DNA of 23,726 nucleotides, from IMG/VR virus record IMGVR_UViG_3300042534_000434, positions 1 to 23,726 of that record. One strand, given 5' to 3'. The notes under the pieces are model-generated. The model saw only the letters and a program-made list of their open reading frames with translations, did no database searches and was not told the DNA's origin. The translations under genes were made by a program, and so were the position numbers. Positions 2,357-22,509 of this stretch are shown piece by piece (positions within the stretch are counted from its first letter, which is position 1; each line of letters opens with the position of its first letter). The DNA comes from a virus.

Positions 2357-2359
2357 GCC

Positions 2360-5002
2360 ATGCCCCTTGTCAGCAGCTCCATCCCCAACCTGATCAATGG
2401 GGTCAGCCAGCAGCCAGCAGCGCTGCGTCTGGCATCTCAGGCCGAGCAGGTCGTCAACTGCATGCCCAGCCCGGTGGAGGGCCTGAAGAAGCGGCCGCCG
2501 ACCTACAACATCGGCCGCCTGTTCACCGGTTCTGCTGGCACCGGCCGGCCATTCACGACCATCGTCGACAGGGACGGCACCATCCAGTACCTAGTGCTAA
2601 TCCTGGACAACGACATCAAGGTCTTTGGCTTGGACGGCAGCCTCAAGACGGTCAACAAGCCAGACGGCACGGGCTACCTGAACATCACTGGGGAGCCAAG
2701 CTCCACCTTCAGGACCTCATCGATTGCCGACTTCACCTTTATCTGCAACCGCGAGAAGACGGTGGCGATGCTGACGGGCAGCGGCGACCTGTCACCCAGC
2801 TGGGGCACCAAGTCCATGGTGTTTGTCCGGGTGGCTGACTACAGCACCACCTACAGCACCACGGTCAACAGCACCACGGTCAGCTACACCACGGCCGCCG
2901 TGGGCGGCACTGAGCCTGACCTGGTCACCATCGCCAGCAACCTGGCCGCCGAGCTGGCCACGTCGGCCATCAACCCCGTGGCTGCCACCTTGACCTCCAC
3001 CGGTGGCACCACCACAACCGCCACCTTCGCCAGCGTGACTGGGGTGGTGACAGGCCAGTACCTGACCGATTCAGCGAACCGGATTCCCAAAGGGGCCCGG
3101 GTCACCAATGTGGCGGGAACCACGGTGACCTTTTCCCCTGCGGCATCAGGAGTTATCCAGAACAACGACACCATCACCTTCCGTTCTGCCACCTATGTCG
3201 TCGTGGCATCGGACTACATCGTCCGCATCGAGAAAGCCGACGGCACCGACTACACGCTGAGCGCCTCGGACAGCCGGACAGCAGAAGGCATCATCGCCAT
3301 CAAGAGTGCCATCGGCTCGCTGTCTGACCTGCCGACCAAGGCCGAGCACGGCTTCATCGTCAAGATCCAGGGCAGTGCTGCCACCCAAGTCGACGACTAC
3401 TACGTCAGGTTCGTGGCCAATGCTGGCAGCGGCTTTGGTGAAGGCGTGTGGCAGGAAACCGTGGGTCCCGGCATCGCCTACAAGTTTGACCCGACAACCA
3501 TGCCCCATGTGCTGGTCCGGGAGAACGACGGCACCTTCACCTTCAGGGAGTTCGATTGGTCTGGCCGGGTGGCTGGTGATGCGGCGACTGCGCCCAACCC
3601 CAGCTTTGTCGGCAGCACCATCCAGAACGTCAACCTGTTCAGGAATCGCTTGGCCTTCCTGGCTGACGAGAACATCATCTTGTCTGCTGCTGACAGCTAC
3701 GACCGGTTCTGGCCGGAGACGGTGCAGACCATCGTCGACAGCGATCCCATTGACCTGACGACTGGCGGCCGGGAGATCAACTTCCTGGTCAGCAGCTTGG
3801 CCTTTGCCAATGTGCTGCTGCTGTTCAGCAGGCACGGCCAGTTTCGGCTGGACAGCGGCACCGCTGCAGGCCTGGCCCTGACGCCCAAGACCGCGGTGGT
3901 CACGCCCATCACCACCTTCGAGATGATCGACAGCGTGGATCCCGTGGGCGTGGGCCGGACCATCTACTTCTCTGTGCCCAAGGGCGACTTCACCGGCCTG
4001 CGGGAGTTCTTCTTGCCAGATGCCAGTGGCCCAGTTCCGCTGTCCGAGGAGGTGACGTCGTCGGTGCCGCGGTTCGTGCCACAGAACCTGTGCAGCCTGA
4101 TCGCCACCACTTCGGAGGAGTCGATCATTGCCATCAGCAAGGACCAGCCCAAGCGGGTCTACCTCTACAAGTTCTTTTTCCAGGACGACACCAAGCTGCA
4201 GTCGGCCTGGTCCTACTGGGAGGTCAAGGGCACCAAGTCGATCATTGGTGCCGATTTGGTCGACAGCGATCTGTACCTGGTCGTCGAATACAGCGACGGC
4301 GTGTATCTGGAGAAGGTGGTGCTGCGGCCGGAGAACGTGGACACCGGCACCAGCATCGAGGTGCTGCTGGACCGCAAAACCACAGAGGCCAGTTGCTCGG
4401 TGGCCCTGACCAACCCGGCCGGCCTGGACGTGCAGTCGACCATCACCTTGCCCTACCCGATTGCCGATGGCAGCTCGATGGTGGTGGTGGGTCGCTTCTT
4501 TGCTGGCAACACGCTGCAGCATGGCCAAGTGCTCACGCCCATCAGTCAGACCCTGGCGGGTGGCGCTGGTGGCAACGGCACCTTGGTGGTTCGTGGTGAC
4601 CTGACCAGCGCCAAGTTCTACGTCGGGGAGCTGTACGACATGCTCTACGAGTTCAGCACCCAGTACTTGAAGGAGCAGCCGCCTGGTGGTGGCATCGCGG
4701 TAGTGGCCGGCCCCAAGCTGCAGCTGCGCACCTGGACCATGGTCTTTGACCAGACGTCCCACTTTGAAATGAAGGTCACGCCCAAGGGCCGGCAGACCTA
4801 CACCTACCCGTACAACGGCATCACCCCTGGCGACGGGGATTTGCTGGGTGAGCCAGGCCTGGAGACCAGCAAGTTTCGGGTGCCGGTGATGACGGAGAAC
4901 ATCAACGCCCAGATTCAGTTGGCCAGCAGCAGCCCTCTACCCTGCAAGCTGCAGTCTGCAGAGTGGGAAGGTTGGTACCACACCAGAGCACGTCGCATGT
5001 GA
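2360..5002 (+). CDS. tail tubular protein B (T7 gp12-like, tail nozzle)
   Basis: An 880-residue nozzle protein, longer than T7 gp12 (794). The N-terminus contains SIPNLINGVSQQPAALR and EGLKKRPP, matching T7 SIKNLKGGISQQPDILR and EGLQKRPP. Mid-protein NRLAFLADENIILS and the FDWSGR segment are typical of the family. Residues about 155-300 are unusually rich in Thr, Ser, Val and Ala, suggesting an inserted beta-rich surface domain that may explain the extra length. The C-terminal QSAEWEGWYHTRARR resembles the end of other nozzle proteins. The stop overlaps the GTG start of the next gene by four bases (GTGA at 4999-5002). Confidence 0.95.
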   Translation: MPLVSSSIPNLINGVSQQPAALRLASQAEQVVNCMPSPVEGLKKRPPTYNIGRLFTGSAGTGRPFTTIVDRDGTIQYLVLILDNDIKVFGLDGSLKTVNKPDGTGYLNITGEPSSTFRTSSIADFTFICNREKTVAMLTGSGDLSPSWGTKSMVFVRVADYSTTYSTTVNSTTVSYTTAAVGGTEPDLVTIASNLAAELATSAINPVAATLTSTGGTTTTATFASVTGVVTGQYLTDSANRIPKGARVTNVAGTTVTFSPAASGVIQNNDTITFRSATYVVVASDYIVRIEKADGTDYTLSASDSRTAEGIIAIKSAIGSLSDLPTKAEHGFIVKIQGSAATQVDDYYVRFVANAGSGFGEGVWQETVGPGIAYKFDPTTMPHVLVRENDGTFTFREFDWSGRVAGDAATAPNPSFVGSTIQNVNLFRNRLAFLADENIILSAADSYDRFWPETVQTIVDSDPIDLTTGGREINFLVSSLAFANVLLLFSRHGQFRLDSGTAAGLALTPKTAVVTPITTFEMIDSVDPVGVGRTIYFSVPKGDFTGLREFFLPDASGPVPLSEEVTSSVPRFVPQNLCSLIATTSEESIIAISKDQPKRVYLYKFFFQDDTKLQSAWSYWEVKGTKSIIGADLVDSDLYLVVEYSDGVYLEKVVLRPENVDTGTSIEVLLDRKTTEASCSVALTNPAGLDVQSTITLPYPIADGSSMVVVGRFFAGNTLQHGQVLTPISQTLAGGAGGNGTLVVRGDLTSAKFYVGELYDMLYEFSTQYLKEQPPGGGIAVVAGPKLQLRTWTMVFDQTSHFEMKVTPKGRQTYTYPYNGITPGDGDLLGEPGLETSKFRVPVMTENINAQIQLASSSPLPCKLQSAEWEGWYHTRARRM

Positions 5003-5472
5003 CTGCGTACACCCGCCTGGCAACGGTTCACGACATTAAGCCGGTGGCCGCGGCCATGCGGGAAGAAGACAAGGCGGAGGTCATGGCTGGCTGCGGGCAG
5101 TCGCCTGATCACGCCTTGCTGTTCTGCTACTTCAAGGGCTCCCCTTGCATGACAATGGTGGGCAGGAGCGGAAGGCCTGTCGGTATGTGGGGTGTAGTGG
5201 ACCAAGGCGAAGGGGTCGGCCGCATTTGGCTGCTGGCCACTGATGAGCTGGTGGAGGACAAGCAGAACAGCATCCAGTTCTTGCGGCAGGCCAAGCCTTG
5301 GCTGGCCCAGATGTTTCAGCGGTACGAGGTGCTGTTCAACTGCGCTGATGCCCGGAACCAGGTCCACATCAAATGGCTTCGCTGGATGGGTTTCACGTTC
5401 ATCGCTGAGCATCCAAACTATGGGAACGAAGGCAGGTCGTTTCTGGAGTTCGTGAAGGTGCGCCATGTGTGA
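4999..5472 (+). CDS. T7 gp13-like protein, GNAT-related fold
   Basis: A 157-residue protein if GTG at 4999 is used. That start overlaps the previous stop and gives an N-terminus (TAYTRLATVHDIKPV) like the opening strand and helix of GNAT proteins. A second GTG at 4963 would add 12 residues inside the upstream gene. T7 gp13 is 138 residues and is needed for virion morphogenesis. The ending HIKWLRWMGFTF parallels T7 HIRFLKTIGAVF, the typical last helix and strand of the N-acetyltransferase fold. A canonical acetyl-CoA R/QxxGxG/A loop is not obvious, so activity should not be assumed. The 3' end overlaps the next gene by 8 bases. Confidence 0.82.
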   Translation: MTAYTRLATVHDIKPVAAAMREEDKAEVMAGCGQSPDHALLFCYFKGSPCMTMVGRSGRPVGMWGVVDQGEGVGRIWLLATDELVEDKQNSIQFLRQAKPWLAQMFQRYEVLFNCADARNQVHIKWLRWMGFTFIAEHPNYGNEGRSFLEFVKVRHV

Positions 5473-6238
5473 ACCCGTCTCAATCACGCTTGGCATCCTC
5501 AGCGCTGGCCTGGGCATCGCGCAGAGCGTCGCTGGCTACCAGCAGGCCCAGGAGAACGTTGCCATTGCCAATGCGCAGGCTGAGCAGAGCTTCCGGTTCC
5601 AGCAGATGCAGGCCAGTTCGGCTCGTGCATTTGAGCAACTGAAGTCGCAGCAGCAGGCGGCGATCATGGATCAGAACCGCTACTTGGCTGACCAGGCTTA
5701 CGAAAATGACATTGGCCAGCTGAACCTGCGGCTAGTCCAAGAGCAGGAAGCTGCAGCCGAGCGTGCTCGGCAGGCGGCCTTGGCTGGCCAGCAGGGCAGG
5801 GGTGAGGTCAGGGCGACAGGCCGGCTGGGCATGACGGTCGACAATTTGATTGCCGACTACTACCGGCAGCAAGCGGTGTTCGACTACGCCACTGAGCGCA
5901 ACCTGGCCTTTGCGCAGACGCAGACGCAGATGGAGAAGACGGGGGCCGCGGCCAGAAGGGGCAGCCGGATTGCCAGCCAGCAGCCGTACCTGGAGCAGCC
6001 GATCTTGGATCCGCTGGAGCCCATCTACCAAGCAGCGCCCAGTGCCACGCCGTACATCCTGAGCGGCATTGGCGCTGGCATTGGCGGGGTGCAGACGGGC
6101 ATGAGTGCCTACGGGCAGATCAGCAAGATCAAGGCTGGCCAGCCACCAAAGGTGCCAAAGGCGCCAGCAGGGGCCAGTCTTGCGCCCAATGCCGGGGTTC
6201 GGGCCCCCGACTACAGCAGCTACTTCCGCTCCAGGTAA
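5465..6238 (+). CDS. internal virion protein B (T7 gp14-like)
   Basis: A 257-residue protein of the ejected core, expected to insert in the outer membrane at infection. It opens MCEPVSITLGILSAGLG, like the short hydrophobic start of T7 gp14 (MCWAAAIPIAISGAQ). A long Gln- and Ala-rich helix follows, with segments such as QQAQENVAIANAQAEQ and a GMTVDNLIADYYRQQA region that parallels T7 GSSMDRIKRVTEGQFIREA. A Gly/Ala-rich hydrophobic stretch (about residues 196-220) near the C-terminus may be membrane-active. It is longer than T7 gp14 (196). Position between the gp13- and gp15-like genes supports the call; direct sequence similarity is modest. Confidence 0.85.
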   Translation: MCEPVSITLGILSAGLGIAQSVAGYQQAQENVAIANAQAEQSFRFQQMQASSARAFEQLKSQQQAAIMDQNRYLADQAYENDIGQLNLRLVQEQEAAAERARQAALAGQQGRGEVRATGRLGMTVDNLIADYYRQQAVFDYATERNLAFAQTQTQMEKTGAAARRGSRIASQQPYLEQPILDPLEPIYQAAPSATPYILSGIGAGIGGVQTGMSAYGQISKIKAGQPPKVPKAPAGASLAPNAGVRAPDYSSYFRSR

Positions 6239-6241
6239 CCC

Positions 6242-8938
6242 ATGGCACGCCTCTCGACTGGTCAAACCTTCGGCGCTACCGGCCGGGCAACACCGGCACG
6301 GCTCATGGGTGCTGCAGAGCAGATGGCCACGCCGGGCATCCTGGCCCAGTCGTCCATCAACCAACCGGCCCTGCAGCCGCAGGCGGCCCCGGTCGACATC
6401 TTCCAGCAAACCGGAGCGCCCACCGTGGGCGGCCCTGTGCGGTTCTTCGAGCCACCGTCACTGCCTGCTGCCAGCCAGGACATGGCGGCCCTTGCCCGGG
6501 CCCTGGGCAGCTTCAGCCCGCTGCTGCAAACCTTTGGCGAGCAGTACGTCGAGCGGGTCAAGACAGAGGACGCCCGGGCCAAGTTGATCGGCCAGCAGTT
6601 CGCCAATGACCTCCGGGTCAGATACCCGGGCCAGCAGCTGGTGGACCTGCGTGATCAGCTGTACCGCCGTGCCCAAGAGGGCGACGTCGCTGCTGCTGAG
6701 GCCTACAACAAGGTGCAGGCCCTGAGTCCGCTGCAGCTGGCCTACGCCAACCGGTACAACAACAAGGCCCTGCTGCAGGACGACATCAACAGTGCAGTTG
6801 GGCGCTTCGCTCAGCTGACTGAGATCGACGGCACGCCCATCGAGCAGATCCCCCCTGGGGACCCAAGGCTGAAAGCTGCGCAGACCAGCCTGTTCCGTAT
6901 CCCCAACGACCCTGTCGTCTTTGCTGAGCTGGCCCCGCAGGTGGAGGCCAAGTACGCCGAGTTCGACCGGCAACACGCCACACTGCACCGGGACCACAAG
7001 ACCAGGCAGGCGGCCGTTGCTACCAAGGCAAACCTGGCCAGCATCTTTACTGCGCAGTTAATCGACCGCGGCACCGCTGCTGCCAACCTGACCAACATGC
7101 TGACCAACGTCAGGGTTGGCCTGGGCGTTGAGGGTTACCAGAAGCACCTGGAGGACATCATTCCGTGGATGGCCGAGGCTGTACTGGCCGGTTCTGTGGT
7201 TGACGGTCAGCTCAATCTGCAGCGCTGGACTTACCTGTCCAATGAGGCCAGGCAAGTGCTTGGGCAGGTCAGAGTGGGGCCCAACGGCGAAACCCTGTTG
7301 GTCGATCAGCTGGGCGCGAAGGGTGGCGTCAGCGCTGCTCTGCAGTTCCAGGACGAGCTGGTCAAGCGATACAAAGCGTTGAGCGACAACGTTGACTACA
7401 TCTCCAAGGAAAAGGGCGAGGATACCGGCAGACAACTTGCTGCTAAATATCGGCTGGGCGACCCAACGCTCAGCCCGACCGCGCGACTGGCTGCAAAGAC
7501 CCAGGCCCTGCAGGCCGCCATGCAAATCCAAGATCCGGTCTTGCGGCAGACGACTGTCGACGAGATTGAAAGGGAATCCAAGGCGATGGATGCAGTTTCC
7601 GCCAACCAGCAGAAGCTGGTGGAAGCGACCGTCACCTTCGGCTACGACAAGGACCCCAATGTCGAAATCCCAAGGATTGAGGCCTTGGTCCGCAATGGCC
7701 TGATGAGCCCCGAGGCGGGCCGGCGGGTACTGGTTAACTACAGGCAGATCCAGGCAGCCGACCAGCGGCCCATCATCAATGCGGCCAAGGACGCTAAGAA
7801 GCGACTGATGGATCAAGAGCTTGCTGCCATGCAGCGACAGGGGTCAGAAGGTGGCAAGACCTTGACCGTGGCAGAAAGCCAGCGGCTGGCTCAGCGCTCT
7901 GCTGAGCTGGATGCTGACATCGAAGCCATCCGCCGTAGCGGCCTGGCCAACAACATGCCGCCGGCTCAACTTCAGAAGGAGCTGGACCGCTACATCGAAG
8001 ACCAGACCAAGAAGACAACGGCTGCTCCTGCCGCTGGTATCACCACTGATCCGCTGTTCGAGTCACCACAGCAGTGGTCGGACAAACAAGGCTTCTTTGG
8101 CCGCATGGGCCCAGGCAACAGGGCCGGCAACTACCAGTTGCAACAGCAGGCCAAGAACGGTGTGTTGTTCCCGGAGAACGTCTACGACCAAATCTTTAAA
8201 AAGTTCTTGACAACAGGCGAGCTTAGTGAGCCTTTGAAATTGATGATCAAGCGGGCTGGCTACGGAGACAAGCCGGCCCAGTTCTTCCTGGATCAGTGGA
8301 ACAACACCTACCCAGGAACGCCGTTCCTGAAGGAGTACGAGGGCAGGCTGCAGGAGCTGAATGGACTGAAGATCAGCGCTGCTCAGCCGGGCGTCCCATC
8401 GACGGCGTCGGTCTACGGGGCCGTCAGCGGGGCCATCAACAATGCAGCCCAGCTGGCCCTGGACGTGGTGGCACCACCTGCCATGGCTGCGCCAACGCCA
8501 ATGGCGACCAGGTCTGGTGGTGGGGCCAGGGGCCCGTCCGTCCGCACTGATTGGAACAGCGTGGTTTCCATGGCTCGCGCCAGGGGCGCCAAGTTTCCTG
8601 AACTGGTTGCTGCTCAATGGGCGCTGGAATCTGACTGGGGCCGGTCCCCTAGTGGCCGCAACAACTTCTTCGGCCAGAAGGGCGCAGGCACGACCAAGGG
8701 CACATGGGAAGTCGTAAACGGCCGGCGGGTAAACACCCGAGCCAGCTTTATGGATTTCGCCAGTCCCAGTGACAGCGTGGGCTTTCTGGTGAACAAGTGG
8801 TACCAAGGCCGCAATGGCGCTAACAATGCCAGGACGGTCGAGGAGGCGGCACGCATTTTGAAGCAGCAGGGATACGCAACAGACCCGCAGTACGTCAACA
8901 AGCTGCTGCGCATCATCCGCAGCAACAGGAGGCCCTAA
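6242..8938 (+). CDS. internal core protein (T7 gp15-like) with C-terminal GH73-like glucosaminidase
   Basis: An 898-residue protein in the gp15 position (T7: 747). Residues 1 to about 700 are a helical, Gln- and Ala-rich core typical of the ejected tube protein. The C-terminus from about residue 770 is a distinct enzyme-like domain: FPELVAAQWALESDWGRSP followed by NNFFGQKG matches the FlgJ-type glucosaminidase (GH73) pattern QxxLExxWGxS...NnxFGxK, with E796 the likely catalytic acid. A Gly/Ala/Pro linker (about 735-765) separates the two parts. It would cut peptidoglycan so that the ejection channel can cross the wall. In T7 the wall-cutting domain is at the N-terminus of gp16 instead. The start follows the previous stop after CCC, with no clear Shine-Dalgarno sequence. 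Confidence 0.88.
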   Translation: MARLSTGQTFGATGRATPARLMGAAEQMATPGILAQSSINQPALQPQAAPVDIFQQTGAPTVGGPVRFFEPPSLPAASQDMAALARALGSFSPLLQTFGEQYVERVKTEDARAKLIGQQFANDLRVRYPGQQLVDLRDQLYRRAQEGDVAAAEAYNKVQALSPLQLAYANRYNNKALLQDDINSAVGRFAQLTEIDGTPIEQIPPGDPRLKAAQTSLFRIPNDPVVFAELAPQVEAKYAEFDRQHATLHRDHKTRQAAVATKANLASIFTAQLIDRGTAAANLTNMLTNVRVGLGVEGYQKHLEDIIPWMAEAVLAGSVVDGQLNLQRWTYLSNEARQVLGQVRVGPNGETLLVDQLGAKGGVSAALQFQDELVKRYKALSDNVDYISKEKGEDTGRQLAAKYRLGDPTLSPTARLAAKTQALQAAMQIQDPVLRQTTVDEIERESKAMDAVSANQQKLVEATVTFGYDKDPNVEIPRIEALVRNGLMSPEAGRRVLVNYRQIQAADQRPIINAAKDAKKRLMDQELAAMQRQGSEGGKTLTVAESQRLAQRSAELDADIEAIRRSGLANNMPPAQLQKELDRYIEDQTKKTTAAPAAGITTDPLFESPQQWSDKQGFFGRMGPGNRAGNYQLQQQAKNGVLFPENVYDQIFKKFLTTGELSEPLKLMIKRAGYGDKPAQFFLDQWNNTYPGTPFLKEYEGRLQELNGLKISAAQPGVPSTASVYGAVSGAINNAAQLALDVVAPPAMAAPTPMATRSGGGARGPSVRTDWNSVVSMARARGAKFPELVAAQWALESDWGRSPSGRNNFFGQKGAGTTKGTWEVVNGRRVNTRASFMDFASPSDSVGFLVNKWYQGRNGANNARTVEEAARILKQQGYATDPQYVNKLLRIIRSNRRP

Positions 8939-8941
8939 CCC

Positions 8942-11900
8942 ATGCCCTACCAATTCAAAACCGACCCCAAAACCGGAGCACGGATTGCCGTCCCTACGGC
9001 TGACCCCAAGTCTTTTGCGCCAATTCCCAAGCCAGAACAAAGGGCTGGCAAGTTTGACGCATCAACAGTGGTCACCAAGGCCGCCCGAGATCTAACGCAG
9101 GAGTTGGGCGGCAACCTGTTGGCCGACGAGCTTTCCAAGTTTCGGCAATTTGGTGGCGTGCCTCGCAAGCCCGGCGCCCCTGATGCGCCCTTCCTTGGCT
9201 TCCTGCCACCGCTGCCCCAGGTAGAGGCCAGCACTTGGGAATCCAATACCGCAAACTTTGTCCAAGGTGCCTTCGCTTGGGTACTGGCCAGCCGCGGCCT
9301 GCGTGCTGCTGGTCGCGCCGCTGCTGTTCGGGTGCCGGGCGCCGCTGCTGTGGGCGCTGCCGCTCGCCCCGTTGTGCAACCGCTGCGTGGCCTAGCGGCC
9401 CGTGCAACCCAGGCCCCTGGGCTCAAGGGCGTTGCTGGCCGGGCGGCAGTGCAGACCATCAAGGAAGCACCTGCCAGCGCACTGGTCGGTTACGGCGCGT
9501 TCAAGCCAGAGGAGCAGCGTGTCTCCGACCACGTCCTGCGATGGGTCGAGGAGCAGGCCGGCACCCCGCTGTACGACCCACTGGTCGGCTTGATCCGTTC
9601 CAAGCCCGGCGACACCGCTTCGGATGCCCGCTGGAAGAACGCAGTCGAGAGCCTGCTGATCTTTGACCCTGCTGCCAATGCAGTGGTCGAAGGGATCGGC
9701 TTGGCCGCCAAGGCTGTGGTCAACCGGTTTTTCGCCAACCAGGCTGCCACTCCTACCCCTGCGGCTAAGCAGGTTGTTGATGCGTCGGCCCGGGAAGTCA
9801 AGCCGCCTGTCGCTCCAACACCTGAGGCTGCTGCTGCCCCTGCGCGACCAGCCAAACCGGCGCAACCGCCATCCACGGCGCCTGACGACATCACGGTTGA
9901 AACCTTTGGCAAAGCTCGGTATCCCGATCAGCCATTGCCGCAGACGGATCCTTCTGTCGACCCATGGGCCGAGGTCGCCAAAGCTGATGCGGAAGCGCAG
10001 CGGGCTTTCGACTTCCTGGAAACAGCAACTGCCCGGGCTGCCAACACTGTGCCCGACGTGATGGGTGCAGTGCGGCCTGAAGCCCGTGCTGTCGAGCGCC
10101 CTGCATATTCCCAAGTGCGGGAAACTCAGGTGACTGAAATCGCCACTGACCCCCAGCGGTTCCAGTTCAAAGCTGCCGGCATCGGCAAGACCGGTGTCAC
10201 CGGTTCCCTGAAGGAGGCGGCTGAGTATGACCCGCTGTTCGGCAAGATCATCAGCGTCTGGCGTGACCCGAACAACGGTCAGCTGTACGTCGTCAACGGT
10301 CACAACCGCCTGGACCTGGCACGTCGTTCTGGCCGGGAAAGCATCCTGACCTGGGAGATCGAGGCCCCTACGGCTGAGCAGGCCCGGGCCATTGGTGCCA
10401 TGGAAAACATGGCCGAAGGGCAAGGCACCCCATGGGATGCAGCCAAGATCATGCGCGATATGGGCATGGGCCTTGAGGAGCTGCGTCAACGGAACATCAA
10501 CATCCGTGGCCCCATCGCTGAGCGGGCCATTCCGCTGAGCCGCCTGCCACAGGAGATCTTCGACCGCGGTGTTACCGGCAAGCTGGACCTGGCCAAGGCT
10601 GTGGCCCTGGGCAGCGAAGCCTTGGATGACGCGGTCATCCGCGACGTCGCTGCTGCTGCTGGCAAGGGCCGGTGGTCAGCAGAGAAGATTCTGCAGGCCA
10701 TGCAGGAGGCCAAGTTTGCCCAGACCCAGACGACCGGTGGCGGCACCATCCCCGGCATGGAGGACTGGGCCACCAAGACCAGCGACTTCAGCGTGCGTGC
10801 TGATGTGCGTGCTGAGGCCTACCGCTCACTGCGGGAGGAGATGATCGCCCTGACCTCGGCTGCACGGCTGGGCCGCAAGGACATCCTTGAGGCAGCCGGC
10901 AATGTGATCGACGTCGCTGGCAGCCAGGCTGCACGGGACCAAGCGGCCCAAGCCGCTGCTGTGTTCAACCGGGTGACCGGGTACACGGGCCCAGTGCGTG
11001 ACCTGTTGAATGAACTGGTCGAGCAGGTGAAGGGTGGCCGCACCACCAAGAAGGTGGTGGCCGACAACCTGGACCGCCTGCGTCAAGCCATCGAGGACGA
11101 GCTGCAAGGGCCGCGGCTGCCACTGGAGGAGCCCCCTGCTGCAGCTGTCGAGCCAGAGATGGCTATGGAGCCAGAGGCCGCTGCAGAGCCGGAAGTGCCT
11201 GAGGTGACGCCGCAACAGCGCGACGAGACCAAGGCCTTGTTGGATCGGGCATTGGCCACTTTGCCATTGGAAAAGCGGCCAGCAGTGCAGGCCGAGCTTG
11301 AGCGCAGGGCGATGGCTCCGACCGAACCACGCATTGCAGTTCAGCCCATGGGCAATGCGGCAGCGGCTGCGATTGAACCACCACAAGGCTTTGGCGGCCG
11401 TGGCCCCCTGGCCAGCACAGAGGAGTTCGTGCCTGACCCCGGCATGAAACCCTTGGATCCTGAGTTTGTTCAGGCCTTCACCAAGGAGCTGACCGAAGAC
11501 ATCCGACGTGTCGCTGGCAATGACGTCGTCATCCGCTTCCAGCAAGCCTTTGAGATGCGGCAACGACCCAAGGAGTGGGGTGGCACTGGCAGCCCCGGGG
11601 ACATTTCCTACGTGAATGGGTCCTACGACCCCATCAAGGATCTGGTTCGGCTCAATGGCATCGGCACCCGAGGTGTTGCCCGCCAGCGGGGAACCGCCTT
11701 CCATGAAGCCTTCCACCGCGTTCAGTACAACTTCCTCACCGAGAAAGAGCTGAAGGCCCTTAACAGCTTTTGGTCACAGCTCAAGCTGTCCATCGCGGCA
11801 AGCCCTGAAATGGAAGCTGCACGCAAGCGTGGCGGCTCAGTCGTTCTGATTGAGCAGCAGGCCATCGCGTTTCAAAAGTTTGCCTACGCCCGCAAGGAAG

Positions 11901-14900
11901 GCCTTGACCCGATTGCCTTCATGGGCGGCGCCACCGAAGGCCAGCTGAAGGGATACAAGGGCATGGAAAAGATGCCTCGTGCCGAAAAGCTTGCCATGGA
12001 CGCCCTGAACACTGGGGTCCGAATCTTGGACACGCTGCTGGATTTCACGGAGAAAGCCAACAACTACATCCGCGGCCGCGGGTGGACGTCGATCAACTCC
12101 ATCTTTGAGCAGGCCTACAGCGGCGAGCTGGCCAGAACCCGCCAAGGCCTGGGCAATGCTTACGAGTTGGCCAGCAATGCAGAAAGCATCCTTGCCCGTA
12201 TTGATGCAGGCGAGAAGGTTCCCATTGAGGAGCTTCGAGCCGTCAGGGAAGGTCAGCGCCGCACTGACATCCTCAACGCCATTCGGGACATGGACACGGT
12301 CCCATTGGGCGGCGAAGCCAACCGCTTTCGTGGTCGCCTGTTCGAGGAGGCCACTGATGGCCCGGTCCCTGCCGATCCACCTGCAGGCCCAGAGAACAGC
12401 GACGACTGGGTCCGTCGTTTTGCACGGGAGCTAGAGGCCAACCGCCAGGCCCTGCTGAACGGCGAGGTCACCATGGAAGACCTGATGGCCAACAACTTCC
12501 AGAAGGTGCAGTCACCGTCTGGTCGCCAGGTCTACACCGCTCAGCGCGAGGACCTGGTCGATGGCTTGAACGCCATGTCCAAGGTGCTGCCTGACAGGCC
12601 AACTGAATCGGGCATCCCGGTGATGGACGTGAACTCCATCCGCCGCATGAACCAAGACTGGTTCTCCCGGCACGGGGAAGATGGCGAAGCAATCATGGCT
12701 GGCCTGCAGTCGCTGACCCGCGGCTTCGACGAGACCCAGCAGGGGGCCCTGAACCGGGCCATGGCCTTTGCTGACAAGAAGCAGGTGGAGGCAGCCCAGG
12801 AGGCTGCCATGTGGCTGAACAGCGCCAACTTCGAGGGCGTCAACGAATCAGAGCGCCTGGCCCGGCTGATCACTGCTGCTGAATCCAGTCGCGCTGCGCA
12901 CCAGGCCGTAATGAAGGTGACCCGCCGATGGGGCCAGCTGGGCCTGGAGATGCAGATCCCCAGGGACTACGACATTCCGGCCAACCAGAACGTCAAAGAT
13001 GCGTCGATCCCGCAGACGCCTGTCGAGGCTGACCTGCCGCCGGAAGCTGCACCAACCGGCCAGCAGGTCGACGTTGACGCTGAGGTCAAGGCTGAGCTGG
13101 AAGCCGAGCAGGCCAAACCCATTGAAGAGACCCTGACCAACAAGCTGGACGAGGAGCTGGCGGCCGCGGCCAATGGCGGTGAGATCACCCCCAAGGCTGC
13201 TGCTGCTGCTGATGCACTGGCCCAGTCGCTGGTGTCGATTGCTGCTGACAGCAAGGCCCGCACCAAGTTCTGGCGGAACTTTGACGACACCAAGACCTTC
13301 ACGCCCAATGCCCTGCTGATGCTGCGCACCAGCAACCTGATCAGCAGCGGTGTCACCAGCACCACCAACGTGATGAACGGCGTGCTGAACCTGGCCCGGC
13401 TGCCGCTACAGCAGGCAGCAGGCGCTGTGCTGCAAGGCGAACTGAAGCGGTCGATGTACTCGCTGATGATGTTCCAGCAGTACTGGAGCAACATGTCCAA
13501 TGCACTGCGGGTGGCAGGCCATGCGTTCAAGGCAGGCCAGTCGCTGTTCAACCTGGAGAACAGCTCGGTCGACTACCTGAGCCGTATCGCCAAGCAGGAG
13601 GCCCAGGGAGAACTGCTGCAAGACGGCACTGAAGCCATGACCGGCTGGACGGTCAACACCATGAACATGGGCCAAGAGTTTGCTCAGACGAAGCTGGGTC
13701 AGCTGGGCAATCACCTGTGGCGCGTGCTGGGCACCGGCGGCACCCGCGTCGCGCTGACCATCGACACGTTCAACTCCACCTTGGCCGGCTACGCCTACGA
13801 GCACATCCGGCACCTGCCTAGGGGCATGGAGCTGGCAGTCGAGCGGGGCATGAAGGACATGAGCCCCGAGGCTTGGAAGTGGGCGCAGCAGTACGCCGAT
13901 GCCCGCACCCAAGAGACCATCAAGGACGTCGTCATCAACGGCAAGAACCTGGCCGATGTCCACATGGACAGCCCTCGGTCTCAGGCGTTCATGGATTCGG
14001 TGAACTTCACCGACAAGATCTGGGCCGACCTGGAGCCTCGGACCTACGGGGAAGGGGTGCGCATTGGCCAGGCCCGCGGGCTGGAAGGCGAGGACCTGCA
14101 GGCCTTTGCCAAGCAGTACGTCGATGAAGGGCTGGCCACGAACAAGATGGCCGAGTTCTTTGTGAACGGCCCTGTCCCGATCGGCCGCCTTGCCTCGTTG
14201 CCGGGTGAGGCCATGGACACCTTGGCCAATGCCAGGTACATCGGCCCGGTGTTCAAGTTCTTGCAGCCGTTTGTGCGGGTGCCAAACAACATCATCAAGG
14301 ACGCTGCCCGCAACACACCGGCCGCGGCCTTTGTGGACACCTTCTGGCGAGACATCACCAGCGAGGACGCCTTCACCAGGGACCGCGCCCTGGGTGAAAT
14401 GGCTACCGGTTCTGCCGTGCTGGCCTTGGTCACCATGGCAACGACCATGGGCTACGTCCGCTTCAACGGCGGCGGCCCTCAAGACTTTGCTGCCCGGCAG
14501 CGGTGGACTGAGATCGAAGGGCGCATGCCGTACTCCGTGCAGTTCTGGAGCGAAGAAGAAGGCAAGTGGGCTCAGCCTGTTTCCATGCGTGCAATGGAGC
14601 CCTTCGCCACCTTGTTTGGCGCCATTGGCGACTACAACGACATCGCCATGAACCTGTCAACCGAAGCCCGCAACAGGCTGGGCGGCTCGCTGGTGCTCAC
14701 CCTGGCCCGCATGTCGACCAGTGGCGTGCTCAGCAAGTCCTACTTCCAGGGCTTCACTGAGATGTACGAGGCTTTCTTCAATCCCAGCCAGGTGTTGACT
14801 GGCCCCAACCAACGGGATTCCATGGCCCGGTACCTGTCCAGGCTGGTGGCCAGCCTGGTACCGCACAGCTCAGCCTTGCGTGCTGCTCGCCGGGAGGTCG

Positions 14901-15613
14901 ACCCTGTTGCTCGCACCGTGGACCCGAGCGACGTCGGTGGCCTGATGGGCTTCTTCCAAGAGACCTTGGATGAGGTACGCAATGCAGTGGCTGGCTGGTC
15001 AAACGACCTGCCTGCCCGTCGGGACTACATCAACGGCCAACCGATCCTGACCACCGGCATCATCGGCTCTGAGCAGATCCCTGCTGAGATGCCGTTCCTG
15101 CAAGCGCTGATGCAGTACACCCCCATGGCTGCCTTCGGCGTGGGTCGTCAGCCCCGGGGCCCAGTGCATGAGGAGATGGCGCGGCTCCATGGCAAGGGCA
15201 CATCCTTCCTTGGCCCCCGTGCTGCTGACTTCGGCGCTGAGATGCGCCTGTCTGCATCCGAGCTGGAGGAGTACATCGTGACCTTTGCCACGGTGAAGGA
15301 TCAGTTCGGCCGCACCTTTGAGCAGTCAGCCACTGAGTTGATCAACTCACCGCAGTACCAGTCCTGGCCGATCGAGGGCCCGTCTAGCAGGTTTGCCAGC
15401 CTGCGGGCCGCGGCCATTCAAGAAGAGATCCAGCGGTACAAAGAGCTGGCCAAGGAGCAGTACAAGGCGACCACGGCCAAGGGCCAGCTGATCATGGCTG
15501 AGCAGGCAGAGCTGGAATTAGACAGAGGTGAAAAGAACTACATGCGCCGGTACGGTGGAGAGCAACAGGCCCAGCCGTCGGGCGCCCAGCCCTGGTCGAT
15601 CACCCCCCGGTAA
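8942..15613 (+). CDS. giant gp16-like ejected protein with ParB-like and HExxH domains (polyvalent protein)
   Basis: A 2,223-residue protein in the gp16 position (T7: 1,318). By eye: residues 90-160 are Ala/Arg-rich and amphipathic. A Pro/Ala linker follows at about 269-316. A ParB-like domain spans about 395-600, with signature VVNGHNRLDLARRSG (H454, N455, R456) and the downstream ENMAEGQGTPWDAA helices. A second Pro/Glu linker lies at about 725-800. A metallopeptidase-like domain at about 850-1000 has HEAFH (921-925) and a possible third ligand E971 in IEQQAIAF. Another acidic linker is near 1360-1420. From about 1450 the C-terminal half is helical and resembles gp16-type inner core and phage large polyvalent proteins. 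No N-terminal lytic transglycosylase is seen. AGGAGG at 8927-8932 supports the start. In T7 the protein enters the cell with the DNA; enzymatic roles here are inferred. Confidence 0.9.
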   Translation: MPYQFKTDPKTGARIAVPTADPKSFAPIPKPEQRAGKFDASTVVTKAARDLTQELGGNLLADELSKFRQFGGVPRKPGAPDAPFLGFLPPLPQVEASTWESNTANFVQGAFAWVLASRGLRAAGRAAAVRVPGAAAVGAAARPVVQPLRGLAARATQAPGLKGVAGRAAVQTIKEAPASALVGYGAFKPEEQRVSDHVLRWVEEQAGTPLYDPLVGLIRSKPGDTASDARWKNAVESLLIFDPAANAVVEGIGLAAKAVVNRFFANQAATPTPAAKQVVDASAREVKPPVAPTPEAAAAPARPAKPAQPPSTAPDDITVETFGKARYPDQPLPQTDPSVDPWAEVAKADAEAQRAFDFLETATARAANTVPDVMGAVRPEARAVERPAYSQVRETQVTEIATDPQRFQFKAAGIGKTGVTGSLKEAAEYDPLFGKIISVWRDPNNGQLYVVNGHNRLDLARRSGRESILTWEIEAPTAEQARAIGAMENMAEGQGTPWDAAKIMRDMGMGLEELRQRNINIRGPIAERAIPLSRLPQEIFDRGVTGKLDLAKAVALGSEALDDAVIRDVAAAAGKGRWSAEKILQAMQEAKFAQTQTTGGGTIPGMEDWATKTSDFSVRADVRAEAYRSLREEMIALTSAARLGRKDILEAAGNVIDVAGSQAARDQAAQAAAVFNRVTGYTGPVRDLLNELVEQVKGGRTTKKVVADNLDRLRQAIEDELQGPRLPLEEPPAAAVEPEMAMEPEAAAEPEVPEVTPQQRDETKALLDRALATLPLEKRPAVQAELERRAMAPTEPRIAVQPMGNAAAAAIEPPQGFGGRGPLASTEEFVPDPGMKPLDPEFVQAFTKELTEDIRRVAGNDVVIRFQQAFEMRQRPKEWGGTGSPGDISYVNGSYDPIKDLVRLNGIGTRGVARQRGTAFHEAFHRVQYNFLTEKELKALNSFWSQLKLSIAASPEMEAARKRGGSVVLIEQQAIAFQKFAYARKEGLDPIAFMGGATEGQLKGYKGMEKMPRAEKLAMDALNTGVRILDTLLDFTEKANNYIRGRGWTSINSIFEQAYSGELARTRQGLGNAYELASNAESILARIDAGEKVPIEELRAVREGQRRTDILNAIRDMDTVPLGGEANRFRGRLFEEATDGPVPADPPAGPENSDDWVRRFARELEANRQALLNGEVTMEDLMANNFQKVQSPSGRQVYTAQREDLVDGLNAMSKVLPDRPTESGIPVMDVNSIRRMNQDWFSRHGEDGEAIMAGLQSLTRGFDETQQGALNRAMAFADKKQVEAAQEAAMWLNSANFEGVNESERLARLITAAESSRAAHQAVMKVTRRWGQLGLEMQIPRDYDIPANQNVKDASIPQTPVEADLPPEAAPTGQQVDVDAEVKAELEAEQAKPIEETLTNKLDEELAAAANGGEITPKAAAAADALAQSLVSIAADSKARTKFWRNFDDTKTFTPNALLMLRTSNLISSGVTSTTNVMNGVLNLARLPLQQAAGAVLQGELKRSMYSLMMFQQYWSNMSNALRVAGHAFKAGQSLFNLENSSVDYLSRIAKQEAQGELLQDGTEAMTGWTVNTMNMGQEFAQTKLGQLGNHLWRVLGTGGTRVALTIDTFNSTLAGYAYEHIRHLPRGMELAVERGMKDMSPEAWKWAQQYADARTQETIKDVVINGKNLADVHMDSPRSQAFMDSVNFTDKIWADLEPRTYGEGVRIGQARGLEGEDLQAFAKQYVDEGLATNKMAEFFVNGPVPIGRLASLPGEAMDTLANARYIGPVFKFLQPFVRVPNNIIKDAARNTPAAAFVDTFWRDITSEDAFTRDRALGEMATGSAVLALVTMATTMGYVRFNGGGPQDFAARQRWTEIEGRMPYSVQFWSEEEGKWAQPVSMRAMEPFATLFGAIGDYNDIAMNLSTEARNRLGGSLVLTLARMSTSGVLSKSYFQGFTEMYEAFFNPSQVLTGPNQRDSMARYLSRLVASLVPHSSALRAARREVDPVARTVDPSDVGGLMGFFQETLDEVRNAVAGWSNDLPARRDYINGQPILTTGIIGSEQIPAEMPFLQALMQYTPMAAFGVGRQPRGPVHEEMARLHGKGTSFLGPRAADFGAEMRLSASELEEYIVTFATVKDQFGRTFEQSATELINSPQYQSWPIEGPSSRFASLRAAAIQEEIQRYKELAKEQYKATTAKGQLIMAEQAELELDRGEKNYMRRYGGEQQAQPSGAQPWSITPR

Positions 15614-15619
15614 CCACCC

Positions 15620-17116
15620 ATGCCCTTTTCCTACGCCGTCTACACCGGGAATGGGTCGACGACCCAGTTCAACGTTCCGTTCCCGTACATCCGCCGGGAG
15701 CATGTCGTTGCTTCCTTGGACTACGTCAGCCAGGTGTTCACCTGGGTCAACAACACCACCGTCGAAATCACACCAGCTCCTGCCGCTGGTGTGCGGGTAG
15801 AGGTCAGGCGGGTAACGCCCATCAATGCACCGTTGGTGGACTTTGTCGATGGCTCCACCTTGGTCGCTGCTGACCTGGACACCAATGCCCTGCAGCAGAC
15901 CTACGTCAACCAAGAGCAGGACGACGACTTCGCAGACACCATCTCCATCAACTCTCAAGGGTTGCTGGATGCAGGCGGCAAGCGGTTGACCAACCTTGGC
16001 AATCCAACATCCGCTCAGGATGCAGCCACCAAGACCTACGTCGACACAGCCGACAACCTGCGGCTGAAGCGCGACGGCACCCAGGCAATGACCGGCGCAT
16101 TGCCGATGGGTGGCTTCAAGGTCACCGGGCTGGGCACTCCATCCAGCAGCGACGATGCGTCGACCAAGGGGTACGTCGACAGCGCGGTCGGCCTGGCCGG
16201 TGGCTTTGCCGCTGCTGCGTCAGCCAGTGCGTCTGCTGCTGCTGTCAGCGAGTCCAATGCAGCTGCGTCGGAAAGCGCTGCAGGGGTTAGCGAGTCCAAT
16301 GCTGCTGCATCTGAGAGCGCTGCTGCTGGTAGCGCCAGTGCTGCGGCCAGCTCTGCGTCGACCGCTACGACCCAGGCCGGCAACGCCAGCTCGTCAGCCA
16401 GTGCTGCATCAGCCAGTGCCACTGCTGCATCCAACAGCGCATCAAACGCTGCCGCCAGTGCTGCCGCTGCCTTGGCAGCCCTGGACAATTTTGATGACAG
16501 GTACCTGGGCCCTAAGAACAGTGACCCAACGGTCGACAACGACGGCGACCCGCTCGTCGCTGGGGCGCTGTACTGGAACACCCCGCTGGGGGTGATGAAG
16601 GTTTACACCGGCACAGTGTGGGTGGTGGCCTATGTGCCTGGCGATGCCATCAACATCAACTTCGCGCCGTACAGCACGATTGCGTCTAACAACGTGCAGG
16701 GCGCGATTCAAGAGCTGACGGATGAAAAGCTGAACCTGACGGGTGGGGCGCTGACTGGCGACCTGGCCCTGAACGCTCAGTCGGACCTGCGCTTTGCAGA
16801 TGCAGACAGCAGCCACTCGGTCGGCTTCCAAGCCCCCTCAACAGTTGCAGCCAATGTGACCTGGACGCTTCCTGCCGCTGATGCGTCGGTGTCGGGGTAT
16901 GCGTTGAAGTCTGACGGGGCAGGCAACCTCAGCTGGGGCCTAGCAGGAGGAGCGTCGGGGGGTGGCGCTAATCAGGTTTTCTATGAGAATGACCAGGTCG
17001 TGACCACCAGTTACACGCTCACCACCAGCAAGAACGCCATGAGCGCGGGGCCCATCACTATCAACTCCGGCGTCACGGTCACCATCCCTGCCGGCCAATT
17101 CTGGAGCATCGTCTGA
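15620..17116 (+). CDS. tail fibre protein with T7 gp17-like virion-binding domain
   Basis: A 498-residue fibre. Residues 1 to about 150 match the T7 gp17 tail-attachment domain: NVPFPYIRREHVV, then RRVTPINAPLVDFVDGS (T7: RRVTSTTDRLVDFTDGS). Two related modules follow (LTNLGNPTSAQDAATKTYVD and VTGLGTPSSSDDASTKGYVD), a common fibre repeat. Residues about 195-287 form an Ala/Ser-only stalk, probably a trimeric coiled or helical rod. The remainder (LGVMKVYTGTVWVVAY and a Gly-rich C-terminus ending PAGQFWSIV) resembles distal cyanophage fibre domains. It lacks a T7-like receptor tip, so the following fibre genes probably supply it. The stop is followed by TC and the next ATG. Confidence 0.92.
   Translation: MPFSYAVYTGNGSTTQFNVPFPYIRREHVVASLDYVSQVFTWVNNTTVEITPAPAAGVRVEVRRVTPINAPLVDFVDGSTLVAADLDTNALQQTYVNQEQDDDFADTISINSQGLLDAGGKRLTNLGNPTSAQDAATKTYVDTADNLRLKRDGTQAMTGALPMGGFKVTGLGTPSSSDDASTKGYVDSAVGLAGGFAAAASASASAAAVSESNAAASESAAGVSESNAAASESAAAGSASAAASSASTATTQAGNASSSASAASASATAASNSASNAAASAAAALAALDNFDDRYLGPKNSDPTVDNDGDPLVAGALYWNTPLGVMKVYTGTVWVVAYVPGDAININFAPYSTIASNNVQGAIQELTDEKLNLTGGALTGDLALNAQSDLRFADADSSHSVGFQAPSTVAANVTWTLPAADASVSGYALKSDGAGNLSWGLAGGASGGGANQVFYENDQVVTTSYTLTTSKNAMSAGPITINSGVTVTIPAGQFWSIV
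16244..16327 (+). repeat. 42-bp imperfect tandem repeat coding the fibre stalk
   Basis: Two adjacent 14-residue units starting VSESNAAASESAA (residues 209-222 and 223-236) are encoded by similar but not identical codons. The 14-residue length equals two heptads, fitting a coiled-coil rod. The same Ser/Ala pattern decays on either side, so the whole stalk probably grew by unequal duplication. Confidence 0.7.
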
Positions 17117-17118
17117 TC

Positions 17119-18315
17119 ATGACTCTTAATCTTTCTGGATCCAACGGTATCAGCGGCGTTGACGGCTCCGCTGGAACGCCTGCCCTTCAAGGCACCGACG
17201 CCAACACCGGCATCAGCTTCCCCGCAGCAGACACCGTTGCGATCAACACCGGCGGCAGCGAGCGCACCAGGGTGGACAGCTCCGGGCGTTTACTAGTTGG
17301 TACGTCTACGAGTAACGGCGGCCAGCTTGAAGTCAACCGAGCATCAAGCAACGGAGGCTTAGCGGGTGTTCTTAACTATCCACAATTTTCAATAACAAAC
17401 TCGTCTAATTACGGGTGGGCGGTTGGAATGCTTTTTAAGACTCCGCTTGTATCAGGCGGTCCCATTGTAAACAACGCCGCAATATGGTCAGACTGGACAT
17501 CAAGCGATAGTGCTTACCTAGGTTTTGCCACAAATAACGGGGGTACGGTTGCGGAGCGGATGAGGATTGATAGCACAGGATACATTCACGCATCAAATAG
17601 CGGTACATACAACGATTCTGGCTTAACTTTTACTTCGCATACCTATCAGAACGATACGTCTAACGCTGGTGTTCAAGCCTTAATAGCGTGGAACAATAGC
17701 TTTGCAAACATCGTTCACAGTATTAGCTGCTTGAGAGCGGCAAATAGTGCGTACAGTTTCCTACAAGGTACTTCTGGAAACGGTTCTACATCTTTTGCTG
17801 ATAATGAATTCAATCTTCGAGGCGATGGCAACGCTTTTGCAGACGGTACTTGGTCCGGTGGCGGCGCTGACTACGCCGAATACTTTGAGTGGTCTGACAG
17901 CAACCCTGATACAGAAGACCGCCGTGGCATCAGCGTTGTCTTGGATGACGACAAGATCCGCGAAGCCGTTGCTGGCGAAGACCCCATCGGCGTGATCTCT
18001 GGCAACCCCAGCGTCGTTGGTGATGCTGCTTGGAACAAGTGGAGCGGCAAATATCTGCGCGATGAGTTTGGCACTTACATCCAAGAGGACTACGAAGTCG
18101 AGGACGAAGACGGCAACACTGTTGTCCAGCAGCGCCGAAAACTCAACCCCGCTTACGACCCTGACGTGGAGTACATCTCCCGCGAACAACGCCCCGAGTG
18201 GGATTGCGTTGGCCTGATGGGCAAGCTCCGCATACGCAAGGGTCAGGCCACCGGCTCTCGCTGGATCAAGATGCGTGACATCAGCGACTCTGTTGAAGAG
18301 TGGTTGGTGCGCTGA
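17119..18315 (+). CDS. tail fibre / receptor-binding protein with C-terminal peptidase G2-like chaperone domain
   Basis: 398 residues. The N-terminus (LSGSNGISGVDGSAG, then RVDSSGRLLVG) is a common fibre adaptor seen in phage structural proteins. Residues about 60-240 are Asn/Ser/Gly-rich beta-structure encoded by a clearly AT-richer stretch (about 17290-17830). From A250 the ADYAEYFEW signature opens a domain resembling the intramolecular chaperone / autoproteolytic peptidase G2 family, which helps fibres trimerise and then cleaves itself off. The middle part is therefore probably the host-recognition tip, and the last 150 or so residues a removable chaperone. I cannot identify the cleavage residue from sequence alone. 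Confidence 0.82.
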   Translation: MTLNLSGSNGISGVDGSAGTPALQGTDANTGISFPAADTVAINTGGSERTRVDSSGRLLVGTSTSNGGQLEVNRASSNGGLAGVLNYPQFSITNSSNYGWAVGMLFKTPLVSGGPIVNNAAIWSDWTSSDSAYLGFATNNGGTVAERMRIDSTGYIHASNSGTYNDSGLTFTSHTYQNDTSNAGVQALIAWNNSFANIVHSISCLRAANSAYSFLQGTSGNGSTSFADNEFNLRGDGNAFADGTWSGGGADYAEYFEWSDSNPDTEDRRGISVVLDDDKIREAVAGEDPIGVISGNPSVVGDAAWNKWSGKYLRDEFGTYIQEDYEVEDEDGNTVVQQRRKLNPAYDPDVEYISREQRPEWDCVGLMGKLRIRKGQATGSRWIKMRDISDSVEEWLVR

Positions 18316-21359: not shown

Positions 21360-21568
21360 TGTGCTCAGCTGCAATGACAGCAGGCGGTGGCGCCAATGTG
21401 GGCATGGGCCTGGGCACTGGCATCAGTGAAGCCATGGCCGGGATGCGTATTGCCAGGGAGGACGTCAAGCAAGGGACATCCCCCATGGCTGACCCACGGA
21501 TCAATCAGATCTACCAGTCGATGACTCCAGCTTCATTGCCGGGTCGACGTCCGGGTCCCACAGCTTGA
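21359..21568 (+). CDS. 69-residue hypothetical protein, last gene of the late strand
   Basis: The start is supported by GGAGG at 21346-21350 and the TGATG overlap. The N-terminal third is Gly/Ala/Met-rich (GGGANVGMGLGTGISEAMAG), weakly hydrophobic, and somewhat like the opening of internal virion protein B. The rest is polar, with DPRINQIYQSM, and ends in a Pro/Arg-rich tail. That tail is coded within 68 bases that also code, on the other strand, the end of the exonuclease, so it may be unconstrained. Function unknown. Confidence 0.55.
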   Translation: MCSAAMTAGGGANVGMGLGTGISEAMAGMRIAREDVKQGTSPMADPRINQIYQSMTPASLPGRRPGPTA

Positions 21569-22277
21569 CCTCACTGGTGCCGAAGTCGTAGTCACCGTGC
21601 CGCAAGATGCGAGCCAGGCGTGCATTGCGCAAGGCATCGGCATAGGTCATGCCGTTCTTCTTGTAGGCAGCGACGACCCGGTCCCACATCTCAGGCAGGG
21701 TGGCAGCTTCCTCCAGGATCTTGTCAGCTTTGACAGGGCCACAGCCCTTAAGGCCTGGGTACCCATCACTGGCATCACCGGTCAGGACTTGCCGCATCCA
21801 GTTCCTATCAGCAGTAACCCGGTCGATCAGTTCAATACCTTCCCCGGCCATGAGCCGGCACGGAACAGTGCGCAGGTCCTTGTCGATGGTCACCACGATG
21901 GGGTTGCTGTATTGCCCACCGGTAGCAAACAGGCCCATGAGGTCGTCAGCTTCCAAGCCAATGGCCGTGCGGCTTTCAAAGGTGACCTCAGCCCACAGCC
22001 TGATGTCACGCAGGCCCAGGGGTTTGCGCTTGCCGATGCGGTTGGCTTTGTAGTCATGGGCGACTGAGTGTCTGAAGGTGGGGTAGTCCGAGAAGCACAT
22101 GACCACAGCGTTGTCTTCGGTGATGGCACGCCAGCGGTCAATGCGGTGGGCGATGAAGTCTTTGACGTCGCCCTCTTCCAGGTGCAGGGTATGAATCCAT
22201 TCATCCCAGCGGATGTCGGCTTCGCATGCAGCGCATGCGGAATAGATCAGCCAGTCAGCGTCGATGAGCAGGGTCAT
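21501..22277 (-). CDS. 5'-3' exonuclease (T7 gp6-like, FEN family)
   Basis: 258 residues from the preferred ATG at 22277 (MTLLIDADWLIY). A longer start at 22325 would run into the upstream zinc-ribbon gene. Metal-binding acidic motifs are in family order: LIDADWLIY, FSDYPTFR, the DYKANR lysine/arginine helix, EADDLMG, VTIDKDL, and LTGDASDGYPGLKGCGPVKA, the last being the acidic plus helix-hairpin-helix DNA-binding part. The C-terminal LRHGDYDFGTSEVKLWDP matches the T7 gp6 end. In T7 it degrades host DNA and removes RNA primers and recombination intermediates. It is probably co-transcribed after the primase-helicase and zinc-ribbon genes; a CCCACC spacer without a Shine-Dalgarno site precedes the start. 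Confidence 0.93.
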   Translation of the reverse strand: MTLLIDADWLIYSACAACEADIRWDEWIHTLHLEEGDVKDFIAHRIDRWRAITEDNAVVMCFSDYPTFRHSVAHDYKANRIGKRKPLGLRDIRLWAEVTFESRTAIGLEADDLMGLFATGGQYSNPIVVTIDKDLRTVPCRLMAGEGIELIDRVTADRNWMRQVLTGDASDGYPGLKGCGPVKADKILEEAATLPEMWDRVVAAYKKNGMTYADALRNARLARILRHGDYDFGTSEVKLWDPDVDPAMKLESSTGRSD

Positions 22278-22284
22278 GGTGGGT

Positions 22285-22503
22285 TCAATAGAAGCGGACG
22301 TGTTGGTAGCCCTCGTTGCGGGCAAGGCCGGTACTGCCGCCCTTCTTTACCCAGCGCACGGACTTGTCTGGCATCTCCAGCTCCAGGGTGAACCAGGTGT
22401 AGCCGCACTCACGGCAGATGCGTTGTCGAAGGATGGTGTCTGGCTCTTCCCGCCTGGTTTGCAGGACTCTTGATGTGGGATGAGAGCAGCGGGCGCAGTT
22501 CAT
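22285..22503 (-). CDS. small zinc-ribbon protein, NrdR N-terminal-like
   Basis: 72 residues. Two CxxC pairs, C3/C6 and C30/C33, frame RVLQTRREEPDTILRQRICR and are followed by GYTWFTLE. This is the layout of the NrdR zinc ribbon (CxxC ... RRRxCxxCxxRFTTxE). NrdR represses ribonucleotide reductase genes, but its ATP-cone regulatory domain is absent here. The protein could bind DNA or RNA, or act as a replication accessory. It lies 6 bases after the primase-helicase stop and 7 bases before the exonuclease start, the slot that DNA polymerase fills in T7. Its start shows the same CCCACC-ATG context as the exonuclease. Confidence 0.78.
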   Translation of the reverse strand: MNCARCSHPTSRVLQTRREEPDTILRQRICRECGYTWFTLELEMPDKSVRWVKKGGSTGLARNEGYQHVRFY

Positions 22504-22509
22504 GGTGGG

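Follow-up and report, generated by a model that had tools for sequence, protein, structure and literature searches.

A putative gp16-like ejection protein of a T7-like aquatic phage with a ParB-type module and a slot for exchangeable predicted enzymes

The DNA analysed here, a virus record of 23,726 bases referred to throughout as the window, contains a giant open frame whose product is probably a gp16-type ejection protein turned polyvalent carrier, in which a constant ParB module for DNA handling stands beside an exchangeable effector slot and which would act in the cytoplasm early in infection. At least two domains of disparate activity are found in the one polypeptide (ParB fold, zincin, gp16-like part), and the frame adjoins virion genes, lying between the gp15-like and tail-fibre genes. 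A sequence-only reading had called the product a polyvalent protein, and a general kinship with such proteins is supported by these disparate domains and virion-gene neighbours. The same reading placed VVNGHNRLDLARR at residues 450-462 and HEAFH at 921-925, and had the domains separated by Pro/Ala/Glu linkers; both motifs are present where it put them, and Pro/Ala/Glu-rich linkers lie on either side of the domains. The coordinates of all features are collected in Table 1.

The structural module of the window is T7-like, with the genes in the order capsid, tail tubular A and B, phrog_308, gp14-like, gp15-like, giant frame and tail fibre, and the order 14-15-16-17 around the giant frame is that of T7. 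The capsid protein is 70% identical to the capsid of the Prochlorococcus phages P-SCSP1, and a T7-type RNA polymerase is encoded by 7 of 8 near-full-length relatives; on these two grounds the phage was assigned to the T7-like (Autographiviridae-type) phages, and it is a member of a T7-like, aquatic phage family. The ATG of the giant frame occurs 4 bases past the end of the gp15-like frame, with AGGAGG a few bases upstream. The gp15-like protein is, from its domain content, the predicted peptidoglycan hydrolase of the ejection set. Pfam searches found no lytic transglycosylase domain in the N-terminal region or the rest of the giant protein, and no RNA polymerase domain anywhere in it. The giant protein shares with T7 gp16 the operon position and the presumed role, but differs from it in having no detected sequence homology and no N-terminal lytic transglycosylase, the hydrolase being the gp15-like glucosaminidase; in other phages, too, the hydrolase has moved from gp16 to gp15 (PMC8954989).

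Table 1. Features of the giant frame and of its neighbours in the window, with the basis of each assignment
Feature	Residues	Position	Strand	Basis
gp14-like internal virion protein		5465..6238	+	phrog_15746, 1e-5
gp15-like neighbour, glucosaminidase at C-terminus		6242..8938	+	PF01832 at residues 785-896 (about 8594-8929), 1.9e-19
Putative polyvalent gp16-like ejection protein, 2,223 aa, about 242 kDa	1-2223	8942..15613	+	open frame of 2,223 codons; synteny gp14-gp15-gp16-fibre
N-terminal region	1-370	8942..10051	+	conserved in relatives
ParB-type module with helical extension	378-727	10073..11122	+	phrog_21, PDB profile matches, AlphaFold2 model
VVNGHNR	450-456	10289..10309	+	counterpart of the ParB GERR nucleotide-pocket motif (GERRxxA)
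E488-N489-M490	488-490	10403..10411	+	counterpart of the ParB ENxQR motif
Variable slot	728-1138	11123..12355	+	exchanged between close relatives
Zincin core: helix, beta sheet, HExxH helix, third-ligand helix	about 840-985	11459..11896	+	AlphaFold2 model, FtsH profile match
HEAFH	921-925	11702..11716	+	motif; H921, E922 and H925 invariant in alignment
E971, predicted third zinc ligand	971	11852..11854	+	97% of 68 rows; 42/42 in second alignment
gp16-like C-terminal half	1139-2223	12356..15610	+	hhalign to marine gp16 family
Tail fibre, T7-order successor of gp16		15620..17116	+	place in T7 gene order

Other genes of the window and of its relatives were recorded alongside. A second fibre-region protein (17119-18315, +) carries a Peptidase_G2 autoproteolytic cleavage domain (PF11962, 5e-43). 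On the strand opposite the structural genes (21501-23724, -) are an exonuclease (PF02739) and a Toprim/DnaB-type primase-helicase (PF03796), and between these two genes sits a 72-residue frame (22285-22503, -) that consists of the NrdR zinc-ribbon part alone (PF22811, 1e-8) and may have a role in ribonucleotide-reductase regulation. A family A DNA polymerase (PF00476) was not found in any of 7 near-full-length records (37-43 kb and possibly incomplete; those behind L009, L017, L040, L041, L044, L092 and L066), while the T7-type RNA polymerase was present; this is like the MPP-C cyanophages, which lack a DNA polymerase gene. Four of the same 7 T7-like genomes (G003, G004, G005 and G006, the records of L017, L040, L041 and L044) have a tyrosine integrase (PF00589), which shares the strand of the RNA polymerase and lies about 2 kb upstream.

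The C-terminal half of the giant protein matched phrog_6651, "internal virion protein", at 1e-18 and also proteins annotated as internal virion protein D in several Autographiviridae, and when it was aligned by hhalign with a marine gp16 family (ProddE, HTVC011P, P-SSP7, S-TIP28, CRP-804, CRP-114) the probability was 100 and the E value 1e-50 over 624 columns. Homology to T7 gp16 was not detected by hhalign with five T7-like sequences, the best probability of 1% being near the reversed control. The earlier description of this half as gp16-like thus stands for the marine gp16 or internal virion protein D family, which hhalign finds, and for the gene order; for T7 gp16 itself hhalign gives no such match. 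The gp16 of P-SSP7 was itself assigned by synteny and size. The marine Autographiviridae proteins (P-SSP7, HTVC011P, ProddE, CRP-804) have in common with the giant protein both the C-terminal homology and the place between gp15 and the tail fibre; they are 1,192-1,334 residues long, whereas the window protein, at 2,223, has the ParB module and the putative effector slot in addition. A hydropathy scan of the C-terminal half gave no clear membrane segment. From the gp16 homology and the synteny we infer that the giant protein is present in the virion and is delivered; the gp16-like half would put it in the internal core and carry it into the cell with the genome.

Searches of Pfam, PHROGs and NCBIfam with the giant protein returned no ParB or zincin family match by name, and the case for both domains was therefore built upon profiles, models and relatives. 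Residues 378-727 matched phrog_21 at 1e-36. Since the C-terminal ParB extension is the only part of that "portal" family to be matched, the annotation "portal protein" was rejected for the giant frame. A search of the PDB with the single window sequence gave noise only. A profile of 31 ParB sequences was run against all PDB chains and matched Noc/ParB at 8e-4 to 1e-3 (Noc, ParB and Spo0J overall at 8e-4 to 0.3), in an alignment spanning the nucleotide pocket and the HTH region. Foldseek with the AlphaFold2 model of residues 378-727 (mean pLDDT 76) retrieved ParB, Noc and KorB at E values of 1e-5 to 3e-4 and probability 1.00 (7bnr, 7nfu, 6t1f and others). The NTPase domain and the HTH region are, by this model, of ParB-type fold, and the ParB-like domain proposed earlier is supported by sequence profile (ParB/Noc, E about 1e-3) as well as by fold (E about 1e-5). 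An affinity of DdrB type was not borne out: P1 DdrB, the one DdrB sequence compared, gave no match to the ParB profile, so that the domain is not to be classed as DdrB-like, and it stands nearest to canonical ParB/Noc, HTH region included. No substitution of N452, G453, H454, R456 or N489 occurs among the 31 ParB relatives. At position 488, where the window protein has a Glu aligned with that of ENxQR, 7/31 relatives have Glu and 24/31 have Gln; the Arg of ENxQR is missing. With G453, R456 and N489 conserved but the Arg missing and the Glu often replaced by Gln, binding of NTP by the module is plausible and its hydrolysis uncertain.

The zincin was examined in an alignment of 42 sequences from diverse relatives, in which the sole invariant columns are H921, E922, H925 and E971; the two His residues and E971 are the predicted zinc ligands, and E922 the predicted catalytic residue. 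The members of this alignment were chosen for HExxH and E971 was no selection criterion, so that the invariance of E971 is an independent result, and it falls on exactly the Glu that the sequence-only reading had named as third ligand. HExxH arises in only 0.66% of shuffles of the giant protein. The model of the domain (pLDDT 85, pTM 0.84) has a helix at 840-858, strands, the HExxH helix at 912-930 and a helix at 969-985 bearing E971, in the order expected for zincins, and the zincin profile matched FtsH at 0.0038; the assignment of a zincin made earlier is in agreement with the invariant HExxH...E, with this fold order and with the FtsH match. Foldseek with the zincin model against the PDB gave weak matches (best E 0.08, to the zincin PprI, with none below 0.07), many of them to entries of lethal factor, also a zincin, and against viral models (BFVD) it matched the "large polyvalent protein" of phage MedDCM-OCT-S31-C1 at 5e-12.

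Scanning for the ParB domain gave 283 encoding stretches, and 80 of the 283 loci were read. Among ParB frames with a natural 3' end, 56/59 terminate in the same gp16-like region, and the slot between the ParB module and that region is 138-939 residues long in the relatives. An HExxH zincin was found in 64 of 67 complete slots, or in 52 of 55 after removal of slots 90% alike. HExxH is missing from the other three: L008 and L041 have an ADP-ribosyltransferase-like (ART) domain, and the slot of L040 is nearly empty and holds linker only. Close relatives differ sharply at this site. L008 is 85% identical to the window protein on both sides of the slot, and an ART domain replaces the zincin; the identity of L031 or L034 to L035 is 99% in ParB and 89-95% in the region after the slot, but 13-16% in the slot itself; and L033, which as far as the slot shows 98% identity to L034, contains an additional ART domain. 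The ART matches in the slots of L008, L041 and L033 were to PF13151 (1.5e-5 and 2e-5), PF18760 (0.0016) and PF00644 (7e-4), all below the Pfam curated cut-offs, and the HG[TA] and GxG[FV]Y motifs are aligned in these slots. A Peptidase_M91 match in one slot was dropped, as it comprises L033 residues inside the ART region, where there is no HExxH. Assembly chimeras are an unlikely origin of the slot swaps because the frames are open and contigs assembled from different metagenomes (L028, L029, L030) have one and the same slot. The swaps are recent, and the slot between the ParB module and the gp16 half holds exchangeable predicted enzymes.

A small module, "PRYSYGSKQFQLRFASDLDRAAYI...HGDKVRAAIK", is absent from the window protein, whereas many relatives, and Nohivirus too, have it ahead of the zincin; it is located in the slots of L002, L006, L009, L012, L015 and L035 and in L096 (6417-10871), and gave no convincing match in Pfam.

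The ParB-zincin pair also occurs outside the fusion. In Nohivirus and in L115 (a Sphingomonadaceae-bin contig) it is a gene of its own, directly upstream of a gp16-sized gene, and in L113 (a Cyanobium-bin contig) a ParB gene lies ahead of one that is homologous to gp16 (1e-12), from which we take ParB-zincin to be a separable unit within the ejection operon. Other fusion partners of this ParB family are a portal protein (L109) and a minor-head-like protein (L093-L095), and these fusions together with the stand-alone genes argue that the module travels among virion proteins. In L111, an Acidobacteria bin contig, a frame of 3,105 codons (2035-11349, +) has the same ParB domain mid-protein (1323-1658) and no HExxH; this is possibly another giant phage protein.

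The swapping of the slot between close relatives is the strongest evidence that the slot enzyme is an accessory effector and not a part of the ejection machine, and the exchange of unlike enzymes at one site in near-identical phages fits effectors chosen by host-specific targets. In the mechanism that we propose, the constant ParB-type module (NTP binding and HTH), which follows the conserved N-terminal region, probably acts on the incoming DNA; the slot would accept enzyme cassettes that can be exchanged, in most relatives a zincin peptidase and in some an ADP-ribosyltransferase; and these enzymes would be effectors selected by host-specific targets, released or active in the cytoplasm as infection begins. 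The slot enzymes may serve anti-defence or host takeover, and the evidence points to no particular defence system.

The main rival to this mechanism is that the zincin is no host effector but a protease for maturation or release. It would cut, either inside the head or once entry has taken place, its own polypeptide or other core proteins, and so let the ParB module and the gp16 half act separately. A zincin is retained in most slots despite highly diverged sequences, for which reason it might serve processing rather than attack; the domain is flanked by linkers rich in Pro, Ala and Glu; and P1 DdrB is processed before packaging, autoprocessing having been proposed as a main role of such zincins (PMC5512222). 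The N4 vRNAP, however, also contains a domain of this kind and is packaged without being cut (PMC5512222), and L008, L041 and L040 keep the full fusion without HExxH, so that cutting by the zincin is not obligatory and the fusion can be kept without a zincin. Swaps of the slot between constant flanks are also easier to reconcile with a target that changes than with a cut site that is fixed. We regard a purely processing zincin as possible, if on the unlikely side; processing and effector roles may both be true.

It is rather unlikely, in our estimate, that the ParB module is the functional core of the protein, an NTP-gated clamp or anchor on the entering genome that controls or protects entry, with the slot enzymes as secondary passengers. 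The module is constant while the slot varies, its profile match takes in the NTPase pocket together with the HTH region, and the same module is carried by portal and minor-head-like proteins elsewhere; yet its ENxQR counterpart is without the Arg and has Gln for Glu in most of the relatives compared (24/31), its nucleotide and DNA sites are putative, and ordinary gp16 proteins function without a ParB module. A wider conception, which we consider improbable as a whole, would make the module an NTP-switched DNA clamp in the ejection machine that is delivered with gp16, loads on the entering genome and helps to hold, ratchet or shield it, and the adjacent slot a polymorphic effector site refilled by recombination, with entry and first strike in one molecule. 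It is very improbable that the ParB and zincin regions serve as structural packing or as spacers and are inactive in the host: they are embedded in a large structural protein, any activity of theirs is predicted, and the slot of L040 is linker only, but the active-site residues are the most conserved positions in otherwise diverged domains, and a predicted catalytic fold gives way to a different one.

A gp16-type ejection protein turned polyvalent carrier, which we prefer, resembles the polyvalent proteins of phages and conjugative elements described by Iyer et al. 2017 (PMC5512222), whose listed domains include zincin, ParB-superfamily and ART domains: in both, unrelated catalytic domains occur in one large protein among virion genes, and co-delivery with DNA is predicted. 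The window protein differs in being built on a gp16-type ejection protein (neither gp16 nor internal virion protein is mentioned in the text of PMC5512222), in having a Noc/ParB-like domain with HTH that is not detectably DdrB-like, and in that swaps within its family occur at one slot. A paucity of polyvalent proteins in cyanobacteria was noted (PMC5512222), whereas the window architecture is present in a cultured Prochlorococcus phage. The N4 virion RNA polymerase and its relatives are likewise giant ejected proteins with an embedded zincin (PMC5512222), but Pfam found no RNA polymerase domain in the window protein, and the T7-type RNA polymerase gene of its relatives lies elsewhere in the genome. 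The direct homologue is gene 21 of the P-SCSP1 (MPP-C) cyanophage, with ParB, an HESFH zincin and a gp16-like C-terminus; its product, about 2,560 residues, has a longer slot than the window protein, and in these cultured Prochlorococcus phages the gene is annotated as hypothetical. In the isolation paper of P-SCSP1 internal virion proteins were guessed from size and position, the authors having found no annotation for them (PMC9860041); the P-SCSP1u structure comprises capsid, portal, adaptor, nozzle and fibre (PMC10575957). Our literature search found no paper describing a gp16-type polyvalent protein or the ParB-slot-gp16 arrangement.

The arrangement is directly testable in P-SCSP1u, for which the virion structure is solved for capsid and portal-tail and not for the ejection proteins. 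If our reading is true, the ejection protein of a widespread T7-like group, cultured Prochlorococcus phages included, also carries exchangeable enzymes, and a giant gene so far annotated as hypothetical would be given a function. The polyvalent-protein idea would then extend to gp16-type ejection proteins and to cyanophages, and the slot, being readable from sequence, would be a source of new injected phage enzymes.
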